The notes beneath the pieces were generated by a model, which was not told where the DNA came from, did no database searches, and saw only the letters and a list, made by a program, of their open reading frames with translations. A stretch of 64,000 bases of DNA from Apostichopus japonicus (taxonomy: Eukaryota; Echinodermata; Holothuroidea; Aspidochirotida; Stichopodidae), in NCBI RefSeq assembly GCF_037975245.1, contig NC_092579.1, positions 10,343,678 to 10,407,677 on the forward strand. The letters run 5' to 3'. The number at the start of each line of letters is the position of its first letter. The stretch's first letter is position 1. The position numbers and the translations under genes were made by a program. Positions 33,541-64,000 of the stretch are shown here, in pieces.

Positions 33541-34329
33541 CTAAAGGAGAGGAACAATAAAACGATTAACAACTGTAACCTTCCCAGGGAGGGAGAGCCA
33601 CCTCCGACTGAATGTGTCGAGCCTTGCCTCCACCTGATCAGCCTTCTCGGCCCAAGTGGTGGCCTCCGGGGCACTATAACCTAGCCAGATGCCATTTACC
33701 CTGATCATGACATCTGACCAAGTAGCATCGATTGGGAGGGATTGGCCGCGCCAACCTCCTAAACGCAGCCCTTTGGTCTTGGACTTGTTAAGTCTGGCAC
33801 CAGTAGCCTCTTGGAAGGTGGCCAAAACCTTCGATAAAGGCTTGAAGGAGGCGAGGTCAGACAAAATACAAGTGACGTCATCGGCATATTGCACGCTTGC
33901 AACTCTAGCCCCACCCGGTACGTTGAAGGGTCGTAAACCTAAGCATCTGTCCAGGGAGGTACTAAGCGTTTTGCTGAATAGAAATAAAACAAACGGAGAG
34001 AGGGGACAACCCTGACGGACTCCCCTTCGAACCGGGAAGGGACCAGAAGTTAATCCGTTAACAGTGACCATGCTCGTGACGTCCTTATTTAGTAACGAGA
34101 CCCAACGAATAAACACTAAGTTCAATCCGAAGGATTCTAAGGTTCTGAACAGAAAGTCGTGATCTACCATGTCAAAGGCCTTTTCCTGGTCCAAGGAGAC
34201 CAGTTCACATGGCAAATCACGAACTTTAAGAAACTCGATAAAGTCTCTTATCAACCACAGGTTATGTTGAATACACTTGCCTCCCACAGCACAAGTCCGG
34301 AGAGGACCTACAATATCCGGCATTAACAT
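33541..34329 (-). pseudogene. Reverse transcriptase part of the Tx1/L1-like LINE
   Basis: 262 codons covering RT fingers and palm: QEKAFDMVDHDF (first catalytic Asp region), GVRQGCPLSP, and YADDVTCIL (catalytic Asp pair). It is interrupted by a frameshift at each end relative to the flanking pieces. Confidence 0.85.
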
Positions 34330-34693
34330 TCGCTAAGCGATTTCCTAATGCTTTGGCCAGGATTTTGTAGTCCACATTTAACAGCGTTATTGGACGCCTA
34401 TTAGGGTCCAAATGGTCTCCCGACTTTGGGAGGAGAACAATATTTCCAACCCGCTGTGTTTGGCTCATGTAATTCAACTGGAAAGAGGTAGCGAACACGT
34501 CTCTCAAGTCCCCACCTAGAACCTCCCAGAAGGTCCTATAGAACTCAGCAGGGAGGCCATCGGAACCGGGGGACTTTCCCTTCTTCATTGCTGCTACCGC
34601 TGTCCAGAGCTCACCAACGAAGAGATTCGAACCCAAGCTATCGTTTTTACTCTGAGGGGGGGGGGGGGGGGCCTTGTCTATACCAGACAACAA
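34262..34693 (-). pseudogene. RT N-terminal part of the Tx1/L1-like LINE
   Basis: Carries KGKSPGSDGLPAEFYRTFWE and RPITLLNVDYKILAKALGNR, the region before the catalytic core. A poly-G tract at about 34656-34671 lies in the same stretch. Confidence 0.8.
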
Positions 34694-37290: not shown

Positions 37291-38424
37291 GTAAGCAAAA
37301 ATATTTGTGTTCATAATATCTTTTTGAGTTATGTAATGTATAGTGAGCGTGTTGGAACGAGTCTGTATTATGTCGATGTTAACGAGTTTCTACCGAAATA
37401 ATTTCTCTTCTAGTTTCTTCACATGGACGCATCACCAAAAGGCAGGCAGTGAATACAAGGTTGGCAACAGTTGGCTTCTCCACCAACATTACATGTTCCT
37501 TTAATTCATCTTCCAGTGAGTATGTACTAACTTGGAAGAAAGATGGGAACATAATAAAGTTTTACGATCCACAAGAATCTTTACATGTGTCTGATACCCA
37601 GGGACAACGATTCTACACCATAACACCCCTGAAGCGAACTGCAACGCTGCACATTAAGAATGTTACTTTCAATGATGCTGGTGATTACGTCTGTAAAAAA
37701 ACTCCCAGGGTAGCAGGAAATTCGGAGGTATGCAGTTGGGTAATAATTGTTCAAGGTATGTCGCACTGCTTTCATATTTCTAAACTAAACATTTGTAGTC
37801 TTCAGCCTCTGTAGAAGATCCTGTTAGGATCGAAACGTCAGGCCCTCTTACTTTTACACACTTGTAGTCTTGTCAACACATCGACGTAGCATGTAACCCG
37901 TACCATAAAATAGTTTCTAAAATACTATAAATAAGGCACACTTTATATTCAAACCAACTTGCATGGCTAGCAAAATCTGTTAAGATATTGTTAACATGTT
38001 CTTATCGGTTGGTGAGAAGAAGAACAAATTGTCACAGCATAAATTTAAGTGATGCTGTATGTGAAACAAAAGATATCCATTATATTTCTTATCGTTGTTA
38101 TTGCAGGTACAACTACTGTAATGTGGAAACCTCCAAGCCCGTCAACTACATCAATTATTGTAGAACGTTATACTTGTGTCAACATAACATGTATTTCTGA
38201 AGGATATCCACCTGTTAATGTAACATTACAAAAGTATACTGATAACTCAAACAAGCCATGGATGAACACAGACTTAGTTCCACGAATAAAGCTGGAGGGG
38301 AACCAAACAACATGGTATTTTGTTTATAACTTGACAAGTGCGACATTTGACAGATTAAGATGTTTCGCTGATAACATCTTTACCAAGCACACACAAGACC
38401 AAGGATTTCTTGTGGAAACAGAAA
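37212..38424 (+). CDS. Immunoglobulin-superfamily protein, 5' exons
   Basis: Three exons, every junction phase 1, the usual layout of Ig-domain genes. Exon 1 (37212-37290) is a signal peptide: MIFGTFIMAGILFFIGTLAL. Exon 2 (37414-37755) is a V-type Ig domain with ITCSFNSSSSEYVLTWKKDG and FNDAGDYVCKK (both Cys, the core Trp and the DxGxYxC motif). Exon 3 (38107-38424) is a second Ig-like domain with NITCISEGYPPVNVTL and RLRCFADN, without the DxGxYxC motif. At least five NxS/T sites suggest a glycosylated surface or secreted protein, perhaps a receptor or recognition molecule. No transmembrane exon or stop was found; the last donor (GAAA|GTAAGT) requires more exons, and SINE repeats follow at once. 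Not assigned to a named family. Confidence 0.75.
37414..37755 (+). CDS. Ig gene exon 2, V-type Ig domain
   Basis: Acceptor TTTCTCTTCTAG, donor CAAG|GTATGT. One exon encodes one domain, about 114 residues, with the intradomain disulfide Cys pair and Trp in place. Confidence 0.82.
37800..37862. mobile_element. Solo arm of the GATCCTGCTAGGATC MITE
   Basis: CTTCAGCCTCTGTAGAAGAT then CCTGTTAGGATCGAAACGTC and TTACTTTTACACAC: one arm of the family at 962 and 10756, here in the intron between Ig exons 2 and 3. Confidence 0.75.
38107..38424 (+). CDS. Ig gene exon 3, second Ig-like domain
   Basis: Acceptor CGTTGTTATTGCAG, donor GAAA|GTAAGT, 106 residues. Cys in CVNITCISEG and RLRCFADN; several NxT sites (NVT, NQT, NLT). 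Confidence 0.75.
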
Positions 38425-41914: not shown

Positions 41915-42011
41915 CGCGTCTGCGACAACATGGTTTTTACCACTGACGTGACGTATGTCCGTGGTAAATTGGGACGCAAAATCTAGATGTCTAATTTCTG
42001 GTAAAAATTCA

Positions 42012-42900
42012 TTAAACCGACGTCTTCGCGAAGTTTGCGTTAGGACGTTGGTTGGGGGAAATTATCAATAGCTTTGACCTTCGCCGGTAGTGGGTGGGTT
42101 CCTGTGGAATCAACTGTGTGTCCAAGAAATTCAAGTATAGGAACTCCAAACTGACTTTTACTTGGGTTAATGACAAATCGTAGTCTTGAAGTCGGTTAAA
42201 CAGTTGTCTCAAATGCTCCATATGTTCCCTTTTTGATTTACTAGCAATGAGTATATCATCGATGTTGACACAATTCCAGTCAACGAGTTACCTCATCCCT
42301 GAAGCGCTGGAATGTTTGAGACCAAATGGCATGCGTTTGAATTCGAACAGACCGAAATGTGTTGTTATTGGCGTTTTGCTAATGTCCAACTCCTCAACCG
42401 GGATTTGGTGATATGCGAGCACTAGGTCTATCTTTGAAAAAAAAAACGTTTGCGCCATTAAGTGACGCAGAAAAGTCTTTTAGATGCGGTATGGGAATGG
42501 TCACGTTATTTATTTCACGATAATCCCCATATGGTCTCCTTTCATCGTTATTCTTTCAAATCATGTGAAAGGGAATGCCCATCGGCTATCCGACGGGCGC
42601 ACTATGCCCAGCTGCATCATGTTTTTGAATTCTTGACGCACAGTTTTGAGTTTGCTGCGTGTTTGACAGCAGATTCTTCGAAATTGACACGAAAAAGGCT
42701 GGGGAATTCCGCAAGAAGCGCGCTGTAACCAGAGTCGCTTTGCGTAGTAGCGGAAGTTAGGCAAAGTGTTTTTAGCGGCGCGTTAGTTCCTTTGATGAAC
42801 AGATTTGTGGTTGTGTCAATAAGTTTGTTGTGCTTAACATCTACTTACAAGCCAAAATTGAGCACGATATCACAGCCTAAACTAAACAGTTTTTTAGTTT
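42012..42900 (-). pseudogene. Gypsy protease-RT remnant, copy 3
   Basis: Decayed frames matching the RT segments at 43.85-44.47 and 45.4-45.79 kb; the plus-strand shadows at 42462-42728 and 44017-44283 are near-identical over 88 codons. The RT joins directly to the RNase H C-terminus at about 41.99 kb, lacking the RNase H body. Confidence 0.7.
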
Positions 42901-43283
42901 GCTATATACCAAAAATCTACGGGAATCGTGTCCTGAGACATTATGTCAAGCGCCAATGAACGTTGGCCAAACGTTGGAATTGTGCTGTTTACAGCTTGAA
43001 GCGTTGGTCCTTTGTCGCAATTTCGAAGATCTGTGCGCGCAGGAGATATAACACTGACTACCGCCCAGTTTCTATGAGAAAACGTGTGTTATTGATTCGA
43101 TCTCGCGCGTAAAACAGGCCACTTGTGACCTGACCAACGTTTGCCGCCACTATGCGTTAGCCTGAGCGTTTTCCGAATTATTAGACGTGCTAGAAAAATT
43201 GCACAGTGGTCTGGAGATTTTTGCAGCAGTGCAGCACATTTGATGATACCAACACATGCCTGGCGGGCCGTTTATCGCGTTTC

Positions 43284-43796
43284 CTACAGTTTGTTGATTA
43301 GTAGAAGTGTTACGCTATCGACCGCGATTCTAATTTCTTTAGGCGAATACTTATCAGAGTTCGTGCTCAATGTATAAGTAAGGGGTTTGTGGTCTGTGAA
43401 AATCGTGAATTGTCGTCCCTCTAATGTGGAGCGGAAATGTTTAAGCGTTAGATAAATGGCAAGCAGTTCGATTCCAAATGCACCGTATCTAGACTCAGTA
43501 CTACCTAGCTTTTGAGAGAAGAAAGACAACGGTTGCCAAGATCCATCTCGGTAGTGCTGAAGTACGCCTCCGACGGCCAGATCCGAGGCATCCACCATGA
43601 CGGAAAGTGGTAAATTGGGATCTGTATGTGTAAGTAGAGTAGCTTGCGCAGGCGCGGTTTTGCTAGCTGTAACAGCTTCAGAGGCTTCATCTGTCCAAGT
43701 CAAGGGTGCTGCATTTCGGTTGTTACCCGCAATTAAATCCGCGAGATGGCGAAGAAGTTCAGCACATTGCGGTATAAATAGGTGGTAAAAATTCAT
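43284..43796 (-). pseudogene. Gypsy RNase H, copy 2
   Basis: 170 codons nearly identical to copy 1 and longer at the end (STNSDKYSPKEIR) before the junction into unrelated residues. Encoded right after RT-connection sequence at about 43.85 kb. Confidence 0.88.
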
Positions 43797-44505
43797 TAAA
43801 CGGACGTCTTCGAAAAGTTAGCGTTAGGACGTTGGTTGAGGGAAATTATCAATAGCTTTGACCTTCGCCGGTAGTGGGTGGATTCCTGTGGAGTTTGAAT
43901 TCGAACAGACCGAAATGTGTTGTTATTGGCGTTTTGCTAATGTCCAACTCCTCAACCGGGATTTGGTGATATGCGAGCACTAGGTCTATCTTTGCAAAAA
44001 ACGTTTGCGCCATTAAGTGACACAGAAAAGTCTTTTAGATGCGGTATGGGAATGGTCACGTTATTTAATTCACGATAATCCCCATATGGTCTCCTTCCAT
44101 CGTTTTTCTTTCAAATCATGTGAAAGGGAATGCCCATCGGCTATCCGACGGGCGCACTATGCCCAGCTGCATCATGTTTTTGAATTCTTGACGCACAGTT
44201 TTGAGTTTGCTGCGTGTTTGACAGCAGATTCTTCGAAATTGACACGAAAAAGGCTGGGGAATTCCGCAAGAAGCGCGCTGTAACCAGAGTCGCTTTGCGT
44301 AGTAGCGTAGTAGCGGAAGTTAGGCAAAGTGTTTTTAGCGGCGCGTTAGTTCCTTTGATGAACAGATTTGTGGTTGTGTCAATAAGTTTGTTGTGCTTAA
44401 CATTTACTAACAAGCCAAAATTGAGCACGATATCACAGCCTAAACTAACAGTTTTTTAGTTTGCTATACCAAAGATCTACGGGAATCGTCTCCTGAGACA
44501 TTATG

Positions 44506-44709
44506 TCAAGCGCCAATGAACGTTGGCCAAACGTTGGAATTGTGCTGTTTACAGCTTGAAGCGTTGGTCTTTTGTCGCAATTTTGGAGATCTGTGCGCGC
44601 AGGAGTCATAGCTGACTACCGCCCCAGTGTCTATGAGAAAACGTGTGTTATTGATTTGATCTCCTGCGTAAAACAGGCGACTTGTGTCCTGACCAACGTT
44701 TGCCGCCAC
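44506..44709 (-). pseudogene. Gypsy protease remnant, copy 2
   Basis: RLFYAGDQINNTRFLIDTGA: the retropepsin DTGA motif in the usual context. Immediately downstream of a gag zinc-knuckle-like piece and followed by RT sequence in other frames. A diverged third copy (FLIE in place of FLID) lies at about 43.0-43.15 kb. Confidence 0.75.
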
Positions 44710-44868
44710 TATGCGTTAGCCTGAGCGTTTTCCGAATTATTAGACGTGCTAGAAAAATTGCACAGTGGTCTGGAGATTTTTGCAGCAGTGCAGCACATTT
44801 GATGATACCGACACATGCCTGGCGGGTCGTTTATCGCGTTTCCTACAGTTTGTTGATTATTAGAAGAG

Positions 44869-45318
44869 TTACGCTATCGACCGCGATTCTAATGTATAAG
44901 TAAGGGGTTTGTGGTCTGTGAAAATCGTGAATTGTCGTCCCTCTAGTGTGTAGCGGAAATTTTTAAGCGTTGGATAAATGGCAAGCAGTTCGATTCCAAA
45001 TGCACCGTATCTAGACTCAGTACTACCTAGCTTTTTAGAGACGAAAGACAACGGTTGCCAAGATCCATCTCGGTAGTGCTGAAGTACGCCTCCGACGGCC
45101 AGATCCGAGGCATCCACCATGACGGAAAGTGGTAAATTGGGATCTGTATGTGTAAGTAGAGTAGCTTGCGCAGGCGCGGTTTTGCTAGCTGTAACAGCTT
45201 CAGAGGCTTCCTCTGTCCAAGTCAAGGGTGCTGCATTTCGGTTGTTACCCGCAATTAAATCCGCGAGATGGCGAAGAAGTTCAGCACATTTCGGTATAAA
45301 TAGTTGGTAAAAAATCAT
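44869..45318 (-). pseudogene. Gypsy RNase H, copy 1
   Basis: LSVMVDASDLAVGGVLQHY, LSFVSKKLGSTESRYGAFG and FTIFTDHKPLTY: RNase H of Ty3/Gypsy type (catalytic Asp in VDAS, Glu in IELLAIY, Asp in TDHK). Ends abruptly at the repeat junction after TYTLE. Confidence 0.88.
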
Positions 45319-45724
45319 TAAACCGACGCCTTCGCGAAGTTTGTGTTAGGTCGTTGGTTGAGGGAAATTATTAATAGCTTTGACCTTCGCCGGTAGTGGG
45401 TGGATTCCTGTGGAATCAACTGTGTGTCGAAGAAATTCAAATTCAATTCAAATTCAACTCGTAGTCTTGAATTCGGTTAAACAGTTGTCTCAAATGATCC
45501 ATATGTTCGCTGTTTGATTGACTAGCAATGAGTATACCATCGATGTTGACATAAAAAATTCCAGTCCAAGAGTTACCTCATCCATGAAGAGCTGGAATGT
45601 TTGCGCCTCATTTTTGAGACCGAATGGCATACGTTTGAATTCGAACAGGCCGAAATGTGTTGTTATTCCCGTTTTGCTAATATCCGACTCCTCAACCGGG
45701 AGTTGGCTAAAATTACGGAAGAAT

Positions 45725-46395
45725 TCACAGCCTAAGATAGCAGTTTTTACGTTTGCTATATAACCCACCGGAATCGTCTCCTGAGACATATGTCAAGCGC
45801 CAATGAACGCTGACCAAACGTTGGAATTGGATCAGCCCACGTAATTGTTGTATCTCAGTGGTTTCATGTGGCGCTGGTTCGATTGCCGAAATTGGCGATA
45901 AACTCCGGTTGACCTCCAAAATTTTGTCTGCTTTAAACGCCAACTGGTCGATTTCACTTGTTGATGCCAGGATTAATTGTGCGTTAACGTGTAAGCGTTG
46001 TAGAAATAACTGACGTAGGATACTGACCTCCAGAGTCCGATCACCCAGAAGCTGCCGAAATCTTCGAAGCAACTTGGATGGTTTGCGGTCCCCCATTTCC
46101 TCGGCAGTTAAGAGTTGGAGGAATTTCTGCTCCGATTCTGACGTACGTCTGATTAGTTCTCTCTTAATTGTATAGTACGGGTGTGGTTCGGGTCGTTGTA
46201 ATAGAAAGTTACGAACTTCTATTGCTATCTCCGATTGAAGGGACAATATAACGTTAGCATACTTTGTTTGTTGGTTCTTTATCCCACGGGTCGTGAACTG
46301 AGCTTCAACTTATCAATACCAGAGCGCAGTAGCTTCAAACTGACCGACGCTATATGAACTTCAGGTTCTGGCGCTGTGTTACCATTATCCATTGT
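45725..46395 (-). pseudogene. Gypsy gag (capsid-like) remnant
   Basis: Starts at MDNGNTAPEPEVHIASVSLK, with a frame break, then FLQLLTAEEMGDRKPSKLLR and EVSILRQLFLQRLHVNAQLI, the capsid C-terminal-domain pattern seen in invertebrate Gypsy gag proteins. Confidence 0.8.
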
Positions 46396-47675: not shown

Positions 47676-48167
47676 TTAATCTTCTCCGTAACGTCTGTTA
47701 CATAAGGGCAAGATGCTCTCTTTCCACCCCTGTCGATCTTCTGCAGCTCTTCTCACATCGGACCAGCTTCTCCAGCCATTCTTGTCTCTCTCTTTAGTTG
47801 CTGTCCTTCTCCAAGTCGTCTTGGGTCTGCCAACCTTCCTCATTCCTTCTGGTGCCCATTCCATTGCTACTCTTGCATGATTTCCTGTCTCCTTCTTCAT
47901 AGTATGACCAATCCAGTTCCATCTGCGTCTCCGTATCTCTACACTTATTCTGTTTATGCCTGTTTGCTGCATAATTCTGTCATTGCTAACTAGTTTTGTC
48001 CAAGGTATCTTCAATATTCTTCGTATGCACTTGAACTGAAAAGCATCCAACTTTTGCTCCTCTCTCTTTGTCACTTTCCATGCTTCACTTCCATATAACA
48101 GCACTGATCTTACTAGCGTTTTGAATAGTGTTAGTTTTGTCTTTTGTCTATCGCACCATTTGTCCAT
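47676..48167 (-). pseudogene. LINE ORF2 C-terminal domain
   Basis: 163 codons: LFKTLVRSVLLYGSEAWKVT, RRRRWNWIGHTMKKE and GRPKTTWRRT, the thumb/C-terminal signature of these LINEs. Confidence 0.9.
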
Positions 48168-49171
48168 ATTCTTCTTAGGTTTCTAAATGCACCACGTGCC
48201 TTTCCTAATCTGCTTTTGATGTCTTCTGTACCTCCTCCATCTTTACGGACTTTGGCCCTCAGATATACAAACTCTTCTACATCTTCCATTTCTATGTTGT
48301 TGATTTTCAGTGGCGCATCTACTTTGTTATTCATTCTCATGTGCTTACATTTCTTCACATTCATATTCAAACCGATTCTTCCTACCATCTCTTCTACTTT
48401 CTCTGTCTTATTCTGGATGTGGTCATGCTTTGCCGATAACAAGGCAATATCGTCCGCAAAATCCAGATCCTCCAGCTGCGTGATAAATCTCCATCTGATG
48501 CCTCTTCTTTCTCCTGCAAGTACTGTCTTCATCATCCAATCTATTGCTAACAAAAACAGGAACCCGCTCATGACACATCCTTGTTTCACCCCAGATGTTA
48601 CGTGCAACCACTCAGTTGTTTCACCTTCATCCACAACTGCGCATTCAACGTTGTCATATAAAGCCTTCACAATTCTAATTATCTTGTCTGGTATCTGATA
48701 CTCTTTCAATATATTCCACAAGCTGTTGCGGTGTAGAGAGTCGAAAGCTTTCTCAAAATCAATAAAATGCACATACAGAGGTGAGTTCCATTCATTTGAC
48801 TGCTCCAGGATGTTACGCAGTGTAAATATCTGCTCTGTTGTACTCCTGTTTGGGCGAAAACCAGCTTGTTCTTGCCTCAAAACCTTGTCCACTCCGTCCT
48901 TTAATCTGTTGATGAGCACTCTTCCGAAGATCTTGCTCATAACTGGCAGCAATGTCACGCCTCTCCAGTTGCTGCAATCTGTGAGGTCCCCCTTTTTGGG
49001 GATTTTAACACTTAACCCCTTGTTCCATCTTTTTGGGGTTGACTCCTCTGACCATATTATATTATAGAGGTCTGTTAGTCTTTCCACTGTAGCATTTACA
49101 TCAGCTTTTAACAATTCAGCTGAGAGTCGGAGCATATACTTGTATGATTGTGACCTTCTTGTGTTTACCAT
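48131..49171 (-). pseudogene. LINE reverse transcriptase
   Basis: 346 codons: PKRWNKGLSVKIPKKGDLTD, EQAGFRPNRSTTEQIFTLR, LYVHFIDFEKAFDSLHRNSL (catalytic Asp), SGVKQGCVMSGFLFLLAID and LDFADDIALLS (FADD catalytic pair). A frameshift at about 48.15 kb separates it from its C-terminal domain. Confidence 0.92.
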
Positions 49172-49523
49172 AAAACCTTGCTGTAATTAGTCTACTACTG
49201 ACTGGTGTCCATTCAATGAGAGTTTTTACAATTCTCTCACTCAACATGATACCAACACCTTGTACATGTGTGTTGTCGTTGCCCACATACAACAGAGTAT
49301 CACCTGAAGCAAGTCTCACTTTCCCTGCACCTGTCCATCTGACCTCACTGAGGCATAGAATGTCAATGCTGTATCTCTCTCTTTCTCTTGCCACAATGGA
49401 TGCAACTCCTGTTGCATACATCGTCCTCACGTTCCATGTGCCTAAGAATAGGCTGTGCTTTGGCGTCACCACAGTTCCTATCGGTCGTTGGGCTTCCCGA
49501 AGGCTTTGGCCCAACGGCGTCAT
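49116..49523 (-). pseudogene. LINE endonuclease (APE-like) N-terminal piece
   Basis: 135 codons with NVRTMYATG, SIDILCLSEVRWTG, GVGIMLSERIVKT and VTIIQVYAPT. The domain stops after the YAPT motif, so the catalytic Asp/His region at its C-terminus is lost to the deletion, and the fusion to RT is out of frame. Confidence 0.85.
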
Positions 49524-55044: not shown

Positions 55045-56408
55045 TCCGCATTAGGCCATTAAAATAGTACATACGGTACCTTCGGAAGTGCAAGATTTCC
55101 GTATTGGGCAATATTTCATAATTTTTGATCCCTTGCCGAACGCAGAAGGCATCGATGCGATGGTAAAGGAATGTGCGTGTGTGTGGCGCTTTCTTGTAAA
55201 TACGAGCGTGTGTGAGTGCGTGTGTGACGCTTTCTTGTAAACACGATATCTCAATAATTGAAACTTGGATTAAAGTCATACTTAATATGTGAGTAACCCA
55301 TATTAGGTAGAAGACTCCTATTTTTTTGGGTGGACGTCAAAAGGTCATTTCAGGTCCCTAGACGTCAAATTGTAAACCCTGTTAACTGCTTGTAAACACG
55401 ACATCTCTTCGGAAGGGTAATTTGGAGGGATTTCTTATTGTGTAGAAGATCCCTGTGATATTGGACGCATTTCAAAGGTCATTTGACGTCAGCAGATGTG
55501 AAAGTCTGAAAATCTTGTAAAAAAATAACTCGAAAAGTGAACTTTTGTTGATGTACAAACTTATCATGTAGATTGCCCTTGGTGAGAACCAAATCGCTGT
55601 GGAATTTCATACTAGTCAAATTTCCTTGAAGTCAAGAGAGGTAGTTTTCTGAAAACCCATTCTACGGTAACTTACATGGACATATACTGTCATCACATAC
55701 ATGTTTCTACACTACGATCATGATGCACAAATCTATATCATTTCATCTTCCGGAGCATGCATCCGTAAAAAAAAACTGTTGCAACGAAACCGGTGTACGC
55801 GCTGCATCCCACGTTGCTGAGTTCTCTAGCTCTCTCTGACCAGTGTATTTGTAGTAAGCACGAAGGTTTTAGTATGTCCAGTACGTTCCTACGAAAACCC
55901 GCGTGAACACGTTAGCCAGATTTTAGCGTTTCGGGGACGAACATTGATAAATTCATGCAAGCACAGTTGGCAGATCTGTTGAGCTAAGATCAAAGCTTTA
56001 ACAAGCGATACCCAAAGGAACTAATCAAGCAAGCCCAAAAGTACCAGTTTGCTCAGTTCTACTAGATATTGACGGGCGTGGATAATTGTTAACCTAAATA
56101 GTCAGAAATGGCCCCTCCTCCTCCACCCCCCCCCCCCGCTGCAAAACAAATTTATGCTGAGGTGACGGTCGGTGTGTATGTATGGGATTTTGGTTATTAA
56201 AGAATAAATAACATTCAGGGAGCTTGTACTTGGTAGCCTCGATGATCCAATCAATAAAAGAACCCTATTGTTTTTGGTGAAGGTCAAACCTCATTTGGGG
56301 TCAATACAGCCCAAACTGTGAATAACCTTCAAACATATGATACATCCAAAACTCTCAATTTGAAATCAAAGCCCTAACAAAATATCTCCTATGGGCAAGT
56401 AATCACTA
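55045..56408. other. Intergenic, nothing recognised
   Basis: Unique-looking sequence with two similar TTTCTTGTAAA-TACGAG/ACACGA stretches (55.19-55.25 kb) and a poly-C run at 56.13 kb. No gene or element seen. Confidence 0.4.
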
Positions 56409-56409
56409 C

Positions 56410-56590
56410 ACTCTAAAAACTGAAGTGCTAATTTAGTAGCACCAACACGGTGCTAGTCAACAATTAGCACTTTAAGAGCTAGTATCTAAACCTTCCAAGT
56501 GTTAAATAACTTGCACCATACCAAAGTGCTATCGCCGTAGTTGTGATGCACTGCACTTATTAAGTGCTGAAAGTTTCGTATTAACTTTTG
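56410..56590. repeat. Left subterminal repeat array
   Basis: About nine copies of an AAGTGCTAA/AGCACTTTA-type motif in both orientations within 180 bp of the left terminus. Confidence 0.75.
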
Positions 56591-57840
56591 ATTGGCTGAA
56601 GGCGTGACGTCAGTAACATGCAACAACGCTATTGGTTGTAACCAAATAGTTGCATATCGCATCGCTAGACGTGACAACTGACGAACGTTTCACCGGCAGA
56701 CGTAAGTTTCTGAATTGAAATCTGTGAATATTCTCCAGAGTAAGGAATATTTGAAAGCTGATATGGCGACCTTTTATGAAATTTGAGTGATCATTCATGT
56801 TTTCAATAACCTAGCTTCGCTGATGACGTCGGGAATTCCCTTGAAATAATAGCTCTGTCGACGTCTTAGTGATGGTAGCCTACCACTGATTTCATAGGTC
56901 TATTCACGTATGTAGATGCCAAATGCGCTCTGATATAACATTAGGCTATGCCAAGTTTATGATTGGGCGTTTATAAATTATAGGCCTAGCCTACCTCCTT
57001 ATTGTAACATTTATAAGGCCTAACTTTATGGCCGCCAATGGTTATTCGATTGAGGTGTGCTACTGGTACTACCGTCTCCTATGTTTGCACAAGTGGCCAT
57101 CACAGAGTCTTAACGTATAAGAGAGGCAGGCTCAATGCAATAAGTATTGGTATTGGTTTATATGCCAATGCCTAAAGAATACGAGCCGATGGCCGCTAGA
57201 CGTCCACAAGAAAACGTTTTGGAAGGCCTGCCAACCCATATTACGCTTTGAATTTGTGGTAGCCTAGCCTAGGCCTAACAGTATTGTGGTAACAGGCCTA
57301 ACGTTGGTGTTGTTAATGTTACTTTGCAGTGTAAGGTCTGTGTGTGATTGCCGACTACAAAATGAAGTAGCCTACAAAGTACAAGTACAAACCATACTTC
57401 ACAGTCATACATTATTCAGGTTTAAAGAAAAATTAAAGTTAATGTAAACATAAAATAATGATCAGAGTAATCGTATACATCTTATTCTTATTTGACCTTC
57501 ATAGTGTTTCCCTTATTTCGTGCATCGCTTAATTTTGTGTACCCTAATGTTTGCCTTGTTTGCACCTATCAAGGAAGGCCTACTATAAGTATGTTTTTCT
57601 TTTGAAATGATGACTCCCAATGTAAATATGCTTCATTTAAGATGTTCTGTCATAAAAAGTGAAAGACTATAGGTAGGCTAAATTTGCCAATTAATTTGAA
57701 ACAAATTTCGGTGAAAATTTAAACATGCTTTTTTTTGATCGAATCTGTTTATAGACTCAAGCTTTTGCAGAAAAATGAAAGAAACCTGACATGTTTTGGG
57801 ATTCATTGCATGTTTTCTTGTTCTATTCTTGTACTTGTAG

Positions 57841-60114
57841 ATTTTGCAAGACTTTGAGCAGATGTATGGAGATCAGGTCGCCAATAACTTTTTGATGAAA
57901 TGGGGGGAACATTCCCGTTTCCAACAGTAGTACCAACTCAGCTCTGCGGGACCTTCAGTTTGAATTTGAAGAAACAGAAAAGTCTGAGGGTATGTTTCAA
58001 AGAAGTGCTAACATTTTGTAGTCATGTGACTCTCATTGTGCAAGTGCAGTCAAGTTTTCTGTAGTGAATATTTGGTATGTTAGCTCTATGAAAGACTGCT
58101 ATAGGTAAAATCATGTACAGAAAAGTGGCAATGCTGTTAACAGTTTGTATATGGTACCCAACTTTCTTTAAATATACATGGAAGATATGAATGAAAGTGA
58201 TTAAACTGAAACTGAATTACATTCCAATCTAGATTTTGAAGAAGACTTAAGTTCTGACACCATCGAAGCTGGTGGGAGCTTATGTCATTGGTGGGCATCT
58301 ACTGTACCTGTCTATCAGTCTAACGATAGTTCATTTAGTGGTATTATCTCCAGCAGTCTTCTTTTGATTTTCAAGTACTGAAGCTAACTTGGCTAAGCAG
58401 ATCCATGGGAGGGGACCCATCACCAATGTATACAAAACTTGATGTCAAAGATCATTTAGGTGTCAATTCAGGCTGCAGCGTGTGAATCTAAAATAGCCAG
58501 ATCATTATCAGATTGCTCGCAAATTGTTGAAATCAGTGGATTTAAACTTGTATCCAGATTTCAAATCAAAGATTATAACTATTGGGGCTAAATTTGTAGC
58601 CAGTTCTTAGGCCCATGCACTAAAATTGACTAAGCTGGCAATCCTGTTCACTATTGCTTTAATTCCAGCTGTGGAGTGAGGGTCAACTGAAGGAAATTTG
58701 TTTCTTGAGCCACGTACTGTTAAAGCGCTGTGGGTGGAGGGGTGTGTTATTATTCTAGAAACATTGTAGAACCAATGTTGTAGGTCTGGTGGTGTAGGGT
58801 TGTAACTGTATAGCCACTTGCTTGGTTCCTTCATTGATACAAGTTACTGTACCACTTGATGCCCTAGTTTCCTCCATCCAAGAGTGTATTCAATAAGCAA
58901 AAGTATTAATTTCCTGGCCAAACCAATTTCAATTATAGAGTAGTGTCCCAGAAATTCTTTCTTGTTTTATTTTGGCATGCAGTGCCTATGTGTAATTTGT
59001 ATATTGCAATTTCTAGAGCAAATAGTAGGAACGAACAATTACTAACTGACACGTCACACTATTTTGTTGACATATGCATCTGTTTTGTTGAGATATGTAA
59101 TCTGTTTTTGTGTTTTTCATTATTAAGAAACTTTTTATTTTCTTCTTTAGAACATGCATCCATGTACAGTCTGTTTGCATTGGTTCACCTATTGCTGTCT
59201 TTCAACACAAGGAAAAGTGGAAAATGCAGTCGAGATGACAATATCCGTTACTTCATCGTCTGGCAACCAGTAAGTTGTTTTGTGTGTTGAGTGGGAAAGA
59301 TCTGCCAAAATTCATACAGAGTGATCAATCTTTAACCATTTGAGCCTAGTGGGATATTGGTGCTGACATACTGTCCTCTAGACCTCAGCCCCCTTGGCTC
59401 AATCTGCTCTGGGCAGTCCAGATAGGTGCCCTTATTAAATGTGTCTTTCCTTCAGGAGATAAGAGTCAACCACATAAAACTATCTGATAAAGATGTGGGT
59501 CAATGTAGACTATTCTGTACCTGAGCCAGATAATCCTTCATTATATATCAAGTTACATCTGCATATCTTTTTAGCTGGTTAGATATTAATATGGATTTTA
59601 TATTTGGTTAAAATATGGCACGAGCCAGGCAGCAGTTCAGGCAAGATAAATAATAGTACGGTTAGTGATGCAAGCAGGATGTGAACTGATTGTCACCTGG
59701 ACTAGTTGAATTTTTCAGAGATTACTAGAGAAATTGGCACTATTTTGGAAATTAATGCATGCTTAATTTATTTTCTTCTTAGATCGGAACAAATGTGGAA
59801 GAATATGCAAAGAAAAGCCAACTCAGCAGAAAACAGCCACACCTCCTGGCCATTGGAAGCAATGTGACTGACTTGCAGCATTTTTTGTAGTTCTGGATGG
59901 AGTTGCCCTACCTGTTTCCAGGCAAGCATGTGGAATTGTAGCAGCTACAGATATTGTAATGAAAGTTCATTATGTTTTTAATGTAGCATATGCAGTGCAG
60001 CTCACAGATTTCTACACCTTTATCCAAACTGTGTTGTATGGCATACCTCCATCAGGTCAAAAGATAAGTAATCGTGTTAAGGAGATAAGGATTGCTTTGC
60101 AAAATGTGGAGTAG
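57841..60114 (+). pseudogene. Unknown-function gene inside the TIR element (4 exons, 2 frameshifts)
   Basis: Exons 57841-57989, 58233-58271, 59151-59269 and 59783-60114 have GT-AG borders and matching phases (1, 1, 0) once two indels are allowed. Residue blocks: LQDFEQMYGDQVANNFLMKW, DLQFEFEETEKSE, MYSLFALVHLLLSFNTRKSG, IGTNVEEYAKKSQ, QPHLLAIGSNVTDLQHF, VALPVSRQACGIVAA and MKVHYVFNVAYAVQL, ending in a TAG stop. The first break is at the G6 run (57901-57906), the second at the T6 run (59881-59886). The pattern resembles uncharacterised multi-copy proteins I recall from fish and invertebrate genomes (a QPxxL...G.......F.VV.....LP....A.D...K.HYVF.V.Y core). It is not a transposase I know. N-terminal exons may be missing. 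Function unknown. Confidence 0.6.
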
Positions 60115-62474
60115 TTGCAAGCATGTCTTAAAATGTATTCTTTTTAATTACTACCATTAATCTCTTCAAGATTTCTCTTAACGTTTCTTAAGTTGCAATG
60201 GCCATTTTGAAGTAGAAAAACATGCCGTATGTTTTTACTTTGGGATCAGTGTTTCAATTCTAGTAATCCTTTAGAGCTCAGTATGTACCTATTATCTAAA
60301 GTGTAGTTGGATTTTTGACATGAACAGAATTATAAGGCCTACAAAACAGGGTAAACAAATACAAAACTGACCACTACACAACTCAGACCCACATATATCT
60401 CTAAAATCATCTCCAGATGAACCTGGTTGTGATGGATAAATCAAGTTTTGACCAGTTATTCAGGTTGTACAGTTGATGATTTAAGTTTGGGCTTATAAAC
60501 ATGGGAGGGATACTGCTTGCACCAGATCTCAGCCACTCACACAAATTACTCATTAATAATTAACGACTCACAATTTGTCAAGTACTTGCTCACCCTTTGG
60601 TAGCGTAGGTTTGCCTAACCTAGTCTTGATTGGGTGTTGTCACTGTTACATTTGCCTTTTATCATGTTTTAAAACATTCATTCCGACTGTTAGATGTTAT
60701 TCAGTGTTATGTTTCAGTTTATTTTTGACTTCATGGAAAGAGTGGAGTGAATAGGTTTGAAGATGTTTTCCAAAATAAGGAACCATGGGAACAAAGCCTC
60801 ATTGGGTGGTCAAAACTGTTTTTGTTTTTTTAATTTAATTTTTGTCCAATCTGAGATCCTATCCAGTTGGAATCTGGATTTTACTGGATTTTAGGGGTGC
60901 ATAGTCCCATCTCCTGTCAATATCACTCAGTACTAATACAGTAAATTAATATCATGTTTGAACATTGTAACATCCATGGCTAAATGTAAACATAAAGTTA
61001 GGCTAGAACACTATGCATGGATATACTCTAGCACTTCTGGTCTACAGCCTTAATTTTTTATAGTAACCAAAGGGCTTAGGTGAGATACTTAAGCTAATCT
61101 GTCTACATTATATGGTTATGAGTTTAGATATCTTAAAGGTTGTATTGGCCCCAAATATGCTAGATTTTAAAATATGGTCACATTTGGTCAAAATTCTTAA
61201 ACTTTTCTTATTAACACCCTGGAGGAAATTTACCTCTCTGGAACATTTCAGTTATCCTGAGTGCTCATGTAGAATGTCAATTTGGAAAGTAAAGATCTCC
61301 AGGAAAGTAGTTTTTGAAAACTTCTATTAAGTTTAGCATGCAATTTGGGGCCAATACAGACTACCTTTAAGTGAAAAGTTGGATAAGTGATATATCTTTG
61401 AATCACTGAATTTGCTTCATAATTATGTTACTATTAAGCTGGTGGTTATATCTGAGATCCGCAACAAAATATTAAAGGTTTTACTATAACTTAACTATAA
61501 AACTTGCATCTTTCCTTTTACTCCAAACAAGTGCAGAGTCTAAAAGGGAGGGAGGGGGGGGGGGTGTTCAATTCATTTTCTTATATGATAATTGCAAATG
61601 CAGTACAGGTTCAAGTGCAAGTATTGAAGTAGAGTGAGAATTGACAGCATTATTAATCAGCTGATAGAAAAGTCTTTTTGAATGATTTTACTATTTGATT
61701 GTGATAACATACAGCTATTCATCTTTCTTAAGAACCATGGCAAAAATATTGATATGTTTATGTTGGTTACAAAGACCTAAATATTTCTTTACTGCAAACT
61801 ATCATGGGTCAATGCTTGTTGATGATGCTAACCAGTGTAAATCAACATAAATTATCAGTTTTAATGTTTCCTATCTTTTGAATTTCCTAATTATGCTCTA
61901 GTGTTTGTGTTTTGTAATATAAAAAACAAGAGAATCTGAGAGAAATGTGGCATCATAAAATCACAGCTGAAAAAACAACACATGCAAACATGATATTGCT
62001 TGCTTTGATAGAGATTCATCTATGGGACCCAATTTTTCTGAGCTGTTGTGTGATATCTTACAAACTATTAGGTACATTCATACTTCCTTGTAAATGAATT
62101 AGAAGGCCAAAATGTGATGCAAAATTCATGGTTTACTCATTTTTAATTAAGTCAGTGGTTCAAAACAAATGTTAGGGTAAAAATATATAAGAAAATCAGA
62201 AATTTTTGTTAACGATCTGAAATCTCATCACTTCATTCTCACTTTGTGTTTGATATTTTTCTTTGTTTCATGAAATAAAAAAGTAAATCTTATAAGTTTC
62301 TCTGTTTTCCTTTATTCTTGTTGATTTAGTATGCCCAAAATGTGTCAAAAAAGTGAGGAATGTCTTGAAGAATGGTATCCTCAGCTTCCATCAATTTGTT
62401 GTTTGACATCAAAGAAGACACTTGTTTATGGGGTTGTGGGCTATTTGAAGCAATGGCGAAGATCCTCTGAATAT
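60115..62474. other. Interior of the TIR element, 3' of the gene
   Basis: Apart from the nested MITE and a poly-G run at about 61553 I find nothing codable. A short frame after the acceptor-like TTGATTTAG at 62329 reads CPKCVKKVRNVLKNGILSFH before a stop; it could be a last exon of another transcript, but is too short to call. Confidence 0.4.
61137..61366. mobile_element. piggyBac-like MITE with TTAA flanks
   Basis: Ends AGGTTGTATTGGCCCCAAAT and ATTTGGGGCCAATACAGACT (then ACCT) are inverted repeats, flanked on both sides by TTAA (61133-61136 and 61367-61370), the piggyBac target. About 230 bp, nested inside the CACTA-like element. Confidence 0.8.
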
Positions 62475-62691
62475 AATAGTTTAAGCACTTTAAAGTGTTG
62501 GGTATAGCTCTTAGCGGGTGCAGAAACCAGCACCTTATTGGGTGCAGAAACTAGCACTTTATGAGGTGCTGGGAGAGATAGCACTTTGTCAGTGCTGTGT
62601 TTAGCACTTGGGGTGCTGTCCCTAATAGGGCTCTTACAAAGTGCTATGAAATAGGTCTTTAAGTGCTGAAATCAGCACTTTAGTTTTTAGA
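62475..62691. repeat. Right subterminal repeat array
   Basis: About a dozen AGCACTTTA, AGCACCTTA, GGTGCTG and AAGTGCTG motifs in 215 bp, mostly spaced 15-25 bp. Confidence 0.8.
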
Positions 62692-64000
62692 GTGTAACTC
62701 TTTGACTTTCTGGTTTCTTATTTGCTCAATACTAGGCTGCTCATGCCCTTATGTAAATGATGTATTCATCCTTTAAGAAAAATACCCCAGCAGCACGGCT
62801 AATAAATCAGCAGTGATGTTAGATGTTTGTATAGCTAACTACCGGACCAAAGTTCAGGAGGCTGTTTCGAAATATAACAATAACAGAGAAAAATCTGCGG
62901 AAGGAGGGAGTGCTCCCGCATCCACTCTCAACCCCAATGAACCAGAAGTGTTGCATTTCTTTACGTGCGATTATGAAGTACTTAATTAACCCGGTTTTGG
63001 GCTTAAAATCAAAATTAATGAAGTTGACAAAACCTAGTCATTGACATTATACCGAATACCAAATTATTCCAATATCACAAAAGCAAACACACAAATTCAG
63101 AAAAGTAAACTTTTTCTGTTACATTTCCTGCATGAATATAAAAATAGGGTTTCTATTACATAACGGCATGAACGGTAGAGTAATATACGCCCCTCCCCCT
63201 TTGTTGGCCTGTGGGGATGACGACGAAGTGTAGATCTACCAGACCAGGTTCACTGTATCCCTTTGTCCTCCTGTATAATCCCCGGAATATGATGCACACT
63301 TTGATCAATGGATCTTATCAGGGTCACCCATATCTCACGCGCACAAAATAATTATATTAATTCTTTCGATTGTGTTGTTGATGCCTACTTGTCACCATTT
63401 CAACTGACCAGTACTGCAGATATGTGCCAGAGTGAGAGAAAAGGAATCCTTTAAACTCAGACTTCTGGAAAAGTTTTGAAAAAAGTGTTAGTAAAAAAAA
63501 GTTAAATGAGACATAATAGTAACTTTTAGGTACATAAAATACAGTAAGGCAATATTGAGACCCTGTGACAAATTAGTGCCATTTCATGACACACGTACTT
63601 TCTATATAAGCCTTCACCTGATCAGCTATGTATACACAATAATGCACATGTTTTGTAGCCTATATAGTCCAATACGCTTAATGTTTTCTCAAAGGTATTC
63701 GGTAAGAGCGGGGGAGGAGGTGGGGGGGGGGGGTGGCAGGCTTTGAAGGGGGAGGGGTTTCCGATCATTTAATTTTATGGCTTAGTGGGTCACTAGTTCC
63801 CAAACATATTCGAGACGGAAGCTCATACAACTTCCGGTTTAGAATTAAAAAAGGGTTTAAGTGCTCAAGTGGCAATGTTTTCAAACTGATCACCCTTCCT
63901 AGAGAGAGTGTCATGTTTATTGTGTTTACAATAAACGTGGAACCTCACACATATCCATTGTACATTGAATATCATGTGATATCCTTACACTTGCAAAGTA
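62692..64000. other. Right-edge intergenic sequence
   Basis: No gene, element or repeat recognised apart from a poly-G stretch at 63720-63732. Confidence 0.45.

Follow-up and report, generated by a model that had tools for sequence, protein, structure and literature searches.

What is a gene with no transposase features doing between the inverted ends of a putative transposon? The question is raised by a segment in a stretch of 64,000 nucleotides from the holothurian Apostichopus japonicus (NCBI RefSeq assembly GCF_037975245.1, contig NC_092579.1, positions 10,343,678 to 10,407,677 of the forward strand), hereafter referred to as the window, in which a first-pass annotation described a CACTA-like element carrying a four-exon gene that was either captured cargo or an undescribed transposition protein. 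We propose, with a probability of roughly 0.87, that the segment belongs to a CACTA-like DNA transposon of the cut-and-paste kind that has two genes, and that this copy is not autonomous. Complete relatives of 12-16 kb appear to encode a DDE-type transposase that bears a zinc finger, and a second gene with several exons usually comes after it on that strand. The window copy would be a deletion derivative that has lost the transposase and, of the second gene, everything except the final three exons, while keeping both ends and their motif arrays. Such a copy may be mobilised in trans, with insertion at TA and duplication of these 2 bp, by proteins that complete relatives supply. The gene itself appears to be a conserved transposon gene of the open reading frame 2 (ORF2) type and not captured cargo, and on this reading a gene that had no explanation takes its place as the second component of a CACTA-like system in animals.

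The element in the window

The element is 6,286 bp long and spans positions 56409-62694; the interval first given for it, 56410 to 62691, did correspond to an element, but its true limits lie 1 bp further out on the left and 3 bp further out on the right. The sequence CACTCTAAAAAC occurs at 56409 on the + strand and at 62694 on the - strand, and these are the only two matches in the window at one mismatch or fewer. Taken on its own this pair is weak, as two or more matches were obtained in 10 of 100 shuffles. The left terminal inverted repeat (CACTCTAAAAACTGAAGTGC..., 56409-56434, + strand) and the right one (CACTCTAAAAACTAAAGTGCTGATTT, 62669-62694, - strand) agree at 24 of the first 26 element bases, or at 26 of 28 nt when the adjoining TA is counted in, and the two copies of the TA target-site duplication are located at 56407-56408 and 62695-62696. 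Within 250 bp of the ends there are four copies of the subterminal motif AGCACT/AGTGCT on the left (56424-56568) and eight on the right (62484-62679), compared with a maximum of three per any 250 bp in 100 first-order simulations of the window. Self-BLAST of the window at E 1e-5 detected no second copy of the element. In the genome as a whole, the left 20-mer is present 35 times in exact form, that of the window included, and its reversed control not at all. Together with the agreement of the arms and the motif counts, these genomic left ends bear out what the first-pass annotation had read from the segment, namely inverted ends, TA on both flanks and arrays on both sides.

Copies of the element in the genome

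The genome searched throughout was the window's own assembly (671.6 Mb, 35 contigs), and 20 of the other 34 left-end loci were retrieved and examined. The gene is enclosed in 18 of these 20, all of them full-length, so that the outcome was the opposite of termini that never enclose the gene or of a gene present in single copy: it is found inside other copies of the termini and at many sites. Each of the 14 left ends outside the retrieved set has a gene match on the corresponding strand, approximately 3.4-4.2 kb further in, the coordinates having been compared by eye. One copy, L028, is 99.7% identical to the window element throughout, and a second, L027, is a deletion form of 5,311 bp with 98% identity. 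The remaining 16 full copies are 5,153-5,304 bp in length; their identity to the window element is around 89-96% in the main blocks that they share with it and 78-81% in the final ~145 bp.

The flanks of the 18 full copies are TA/TA in 16 cases, at different sites, CA/CA in one (L024) and CA/TA in one (L018, within a TA repeat), giving TA/TA in 17 of 19 with the window counted. The target duplication read from these flanks, with no empty site seen, falls within the 2-5 bp of CACTA/EnSpm elements, that is, of the CMCT clade in the broad sense. The two retrieved loci without the gene, L009 (C1:7468700) and L010 (C1:7581620), match only about the first 128 bp of the element. A different type of element was considered for them and rejected, since they represent a single truncated left end within a segment duplicated approximately 113 kb apart.

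Complete relatives and further families

A genome search with the joined product of the window gene gave 532 candidates, of which the best 150 were scored, all at E 0.01 or better; 51 rows at 53% identity or less are treated here as divergent relatives, and the other rows, near copies at 63% or more, were dropped. One relative, at C1:19558165, sits in a complete element of 12,334 bp (C1:19548426-19560759) that is flanked by TA left and right, has termini identical at 22 of 22 positions, and carries five and eight AGTGCT/AGCACT motifs at its two ends. This C1 element contains an 840-amino-acid single-exon transposase frame and then the second gene, with the conserved exons in order. The right 1.58 kb of the window element (61115-62694) is 95.5% identical to its right end, and 59 of the 60 final bases are the same. 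The first 22 bases of the window's right terminal repeat occur at seven places in the genome: at either end of the C1 element, at either end of a second complete element on C16, and at the right ends of the window element, L028 and L027. The C16 element is 12,011 bp long and has the same two ends as that of C1, with a transposase match followed by a gene match.

Three further families, designated a, c and d, carry the gene at 37-43% identity to that of the window inside TA-flanked inverted ends, and two of them have a transposase. Family a (C14, 14,898 bp) and family c (C10, ~16.0 kb) both have CTCTCTTAA ends next to TA on both sides, with subterminal arrays of their own, of AGACTGA and AGATTGA. 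The transposase is 851 amino acids from its ATG in family a and 867 open codons in family c, and the second gene comes after each. In family d (L031, L034 and L035) the gene lies inside ends consisting of TA followed by CACTGTAAAAAC, the element being 3,682 bp in L031; L034 and L035 are 97% identical to L031, no transposase was seen in L031, and no left end was found for L035. The exons of the second gene are collinear among C1, C10 and C14, and the last exon of the divergent families shares 28-54% amino acid identity with the C1 copy. The suggestion that the gene belongs to the element is thus upheld by the copies that enclose it and by the three divergent TA-flanked families and complete C1 element that carry it.

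The transposases of C1, C10 and C14 are 35% (C1-C10 and C1-C14) and 60% (C10-C14) identical. Invariant or nearly so among them are an N-terminal CFKC zinc-finger-like region, an acidic FFD/FYD/YYD motif, S-x-D, C-x2-C, MHD-LEG, H-x3-H and [FY]E-x-KH. A D-D-C(2)C-H(3)H-E pattern, read by eye, is invariant across this range of identity, and we regard these proteins as putatively catalytic DDE-type transposases. Since the complete relatives read here have this separate, adjoining transposase-like frame, the second gene itself is most likely not a transposase. The transposase query, P0001, gave a DUF4218 match at E 0.26, below the cut-off and seen for this protein only, and had no match in the PDB. 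No Tc1/mariner transposase family was among the Pfam matches of the element proteins and exons tested, and the window copy itself has no transposase.

Linkage of the two genes and possible selection

The genome search with P0001 gave 410 candidates, and the best 53 were scored; 45 of these matches lie in frames of at least 800 codons and 46 have no reported stop. A transposase match is found within 20 kb of 16 of the 51 divergent gene relatives, on the same strand in all 16 cases, where approximately 0.17 would be expected by chance. The transposase is upstream by 4.8-10.3 kb in 13 of these pairs and just downstream in three. At C12:19953579-19956349, C5:10757415-10760185 and C7:4675932-4678700 the last domain of the gene lies directly upstream of the transposase match (by 3, 3 and 523 bp, respectively), possibly as a reordered variant.

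In comparisons between families, synonymous differences reach proportions of 0.72-0.85, which is near saturation, and non-synonymous ones 0.25-0.53, for both genes. These proportions, from a comparison that includes L022, itself a relic copy, are consistent with selection on the protein in both cases. Pairs of transposase and partner within one genome could be used to test what ORF2-type proteins do.

The gene remnant in the window copy

The four-exon structure originally put forward for the gene did not hold, and three + strand exons are supported by splice sites, phase and homology. Exon A (57841-57992, acceptor ttgtag, donor GTATGT) is present in all copies except L027 and is collinear with that of the relatives. 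Exon C (59152-59272) has a fitting acceptor, donor and phase and shares 55% amino acid identity with the C1 element over 47 residues, a few of them beyond the donor. The last exon, D (59783-60116), shares 55% identity with the C1 element over 78 residues and is the exon represented in alignment A1. An additional exon at ~58233 was dropped as unnecessary, because phase joins 57992 to 59152 directly. The upstream exons known from complete relatives were not found in the window copy, which is unable to make an intact protein because exons A and D are each frameshifted.

The other copies are similarly decayed. In 8 of the 18 other full copies (L014, L017, L020, L022, L024, L025, L026 and L027), exon D can be read without interruption as far as its stop. 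Of the 17 copies that have exon A, 5 (L012, L014, L016, L023 and L024) keep it open in the joining frame, and exon C carries a stop in each of those five. Among the 19 copies, window counted, there is none in which A, C and D are all open, and the family therefore presumably spread in trans, without making the protein. Identity among copies stays roughly constant from one end of the element to the other, and exon D shows a slight rise at most.

The 200-amino-acid joined product of the window gene had no Pfam match and no PDB match, and a scan of IMG/VR with the last exon gave 16 pattern matches, none of which was confirmed. A single-sequence fold of an 80-amino-acid window piece was poor, with a predicted local distance difference test score (pLDDT) of 65.9 and a predicted template modelling score (pTM) of 0.29. 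In alignment A1, which covers the last exon only, F37, A57, D59, K63, F68 and V102 are invariant and no acidic triad is kept.

Near the right end, at 62325-62507, a 60-amino-acid open stretch lies behind a good-looking 3' splice site and is 98% identical in the C1 element; it may be an exon, untranslated sequence or nothing. An antisense frame at 62326-62550 was considered and then dropped.

Proposed role of the second protein

The second protein is likely to act as a partner of the transposase in recognising or assembling the element ends. In this it would most likely resemble ORF2/TnpA-like proteins, either binding the subterminal arrays or bringing both ends together for the transposase, and in complete copies it may use a self-association domain of the SAM or PB1 type at its start. 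This suggestion draws on the second gene of family c, which matches the SAM domain PF00536 with 27.7 bits (E 3.6e-6), above the cut-off of 23, and on a similar stretch in family a.

Among the other explanations the one that survives best is that the second protein is a regulator of element expression or silencing more than an end-joining factor, which we consider possible though somewhat unlikely. Its precedent is maize TNPA, described as reactivating a methylated promoter and repressing an unmethylated one (PMC1636069), and the subterminal arrays could serve as sites for such a protein here too. The two roles are not mutually exclusive, however.

A gene captured from the host, which was one of the two possibilities raised at the outset, is improbable. 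Plant CACTA elements do capture host fragments, and both the lack of a transposase in the window copy and the lack of a Pfam or PDB match for the joined product would fit cargo. A single capture of a host gene would hardly give several divergent families that carry it at 28-54% identity in the last exon, collinear exons in C1, C10 and C14, and the pairing of 16 of the 51 divergent relatives with a transposase always on one strand, and cargo is disfavoured for these reasons. The other possibility raised, a transposition protein, is supported in so far as the gene appears to be a transposon gene, though most likely not the transposase. That it might be an undescribed transposase mobilising the element alone, as could be thought from its being the sole gene recognised in numerous 5.2-6.3 kb copies and in family d (3.7 kb), is still less probable, given that window-family copies not open across the three exons would not be making the protein, that complete relatives carry a separate frame with the D, D, C(2)C, H(3)H, E pattern, and that the last exon has no conserved acidic triad.

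The interpretation as a derivative of a two-gene transposon also has to accommodate several observations that weigh against it. Over its left 4.7 kb, the window element matches the DNA of the C1 element hardly anywhere apart from its ends and a 74-bp piece of exon A (73% identity), and the window copy may therefore combine two lineages; an intact parent of its left part and gene was not found in the genome. Neither P0001, P0002 nor the C1 transposase reached a Pfam cut-off, and none of the three matched Transposase_21; the C16 transposase match has one reported stop. On the side of the second protein, the resemblance of its start to PB1 in the C1 element (E 0.006) is below the cut-off, and no usable fold was obtained. 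The ends of families a and c are CTCTCTTAA and not CACT. Among the scored matches, 35 of the 51 divergent gene relatives and 37 of the 53 transposase matches are unpaired, and at three loci the order of gene and transposase is reversed. The unpaired matches can be explained by deletion derivatives of the family d kind, by unscored candidates and by diverged partners, and transposases that lack a partner gene may also exist.

A wider proposal, to which we give even odds, is that TA-inserting CACTA-like elements form a widespread lineage in animals that needs a conserved second protein, one that carries a self-association domain of the SAM/PB1 type and has co-evolved with the transposase. Vertebrate SAMD3-like genes would then be that transposon protein, free or domesticated, and not host SAM-domain genes. 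Vertebrate SAMD3-like proteins presumably resemble the last exons and the SAM domain seen here, a likeness that we take as a lead only. If it holds, multi-copy genes resembling the second protein in animal annotations may be transposon genes.

Comparison with known transposons

Subterminal repeats and deletion derivatives are features of plant CACTA/En-Spm elements that are shared by the elements described here. In the broad sense of CACTA/EnSpm, the CMCT clade, inverted CA..TG ends are found as CACT..AGTG in the window element, C1, C16 and family d, and not in families a and c (CTCTCTTAA). The D, D, C(2)C, H(3-4)H, E arrangement of that clade's transposases was found by eye in the relatives, again as putative catalysis. 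The narrower combination of terminal CACTA with a 3-bp duplication is absent, the ends here being CACTC and the duplication 2 bp, and the CCC terminal core of animal TRC elements does not occur in these elements. A two-ORF organisation was seen by direct reading in C1, C10 and C14 and from matches and ends in C16, and is lacking in the window copy.

Plant CACTA elements are described as having two ORFs, the second being of unknown function and reported to support excision and transposition in specific families (PMC4158355). The present elements are like these plant two-ORF elements in their CACT-starting inverted ends, DDE transposase and second ORF (PMC4158355). They differ from plant CACTA/En-Spm in their CACTC ends and 2-bp TA duplication (3 bp in plants), in that Transposase_21 was not detected by the searches made here, and in the SAM domain of the second protein in one family.

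In maize, TNPA acts on the promoter of its own element and interacts with TNPD (PMC1636069). Animal TRC elements such as SmTRC1, treated in the same source, are likewise animal CACTA-type elements with more than one protein per element, and a 2-bp direct repeat is given there for two insect examples. In contrast to the present elements, TRC ends begin with CCC and SmTRC1 has a Transposase_21 domain (PMC1636069). The authors detected no similarity for the second protein of SmTRC1 (PMC1636069), whereas the second protein here is recognisable across divergent families.

The ESTA elements are EnSpm-like with TA duplications, as are those described here, and the CMCT clade shares with the present elements C(2)C and H(3-4)H between the second D and the last E, mostly CA..TG ends and duplications of 2-5 bp (PMC12730594). 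The ESTA families described there are fungal and carry a TET/JBP gene (PMC12730594); no such gene was recognised here, no search having been aimed at TET/JBP, and the likeness is one of description only. A published description of the present element did not turn up in literature searches, though Repbase or Dfam may catalogue it. Among the matches listed by those searches, neither the SAM domain together with CACTA/EnSpm, nor sterile alpha motif together with DNA transposons, nor the term 'SAMD3-like' occurred.

Other features of the window

Outside the element, positions 41999-46309 of the window hold retrotransposon relics with RVT_1, RNase H and DUF7041 matches, within which there is a tandem duplication of approximately 1.5 kb (42335-43892 and 43893-45414, 94% identity). 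Two more reverse transcriptase relics (RVT_1), probably of the long interspersed nuclear element (LINE) type, are found at 33541-34332 and 48131-49186. A 527-amino-acid open frame at 27513-29096 matches MFS_1_like and is apparently an intronless host gene, and an immunoglobulin-domain exon (Ig_3, V-set) is located at 37383-37814.

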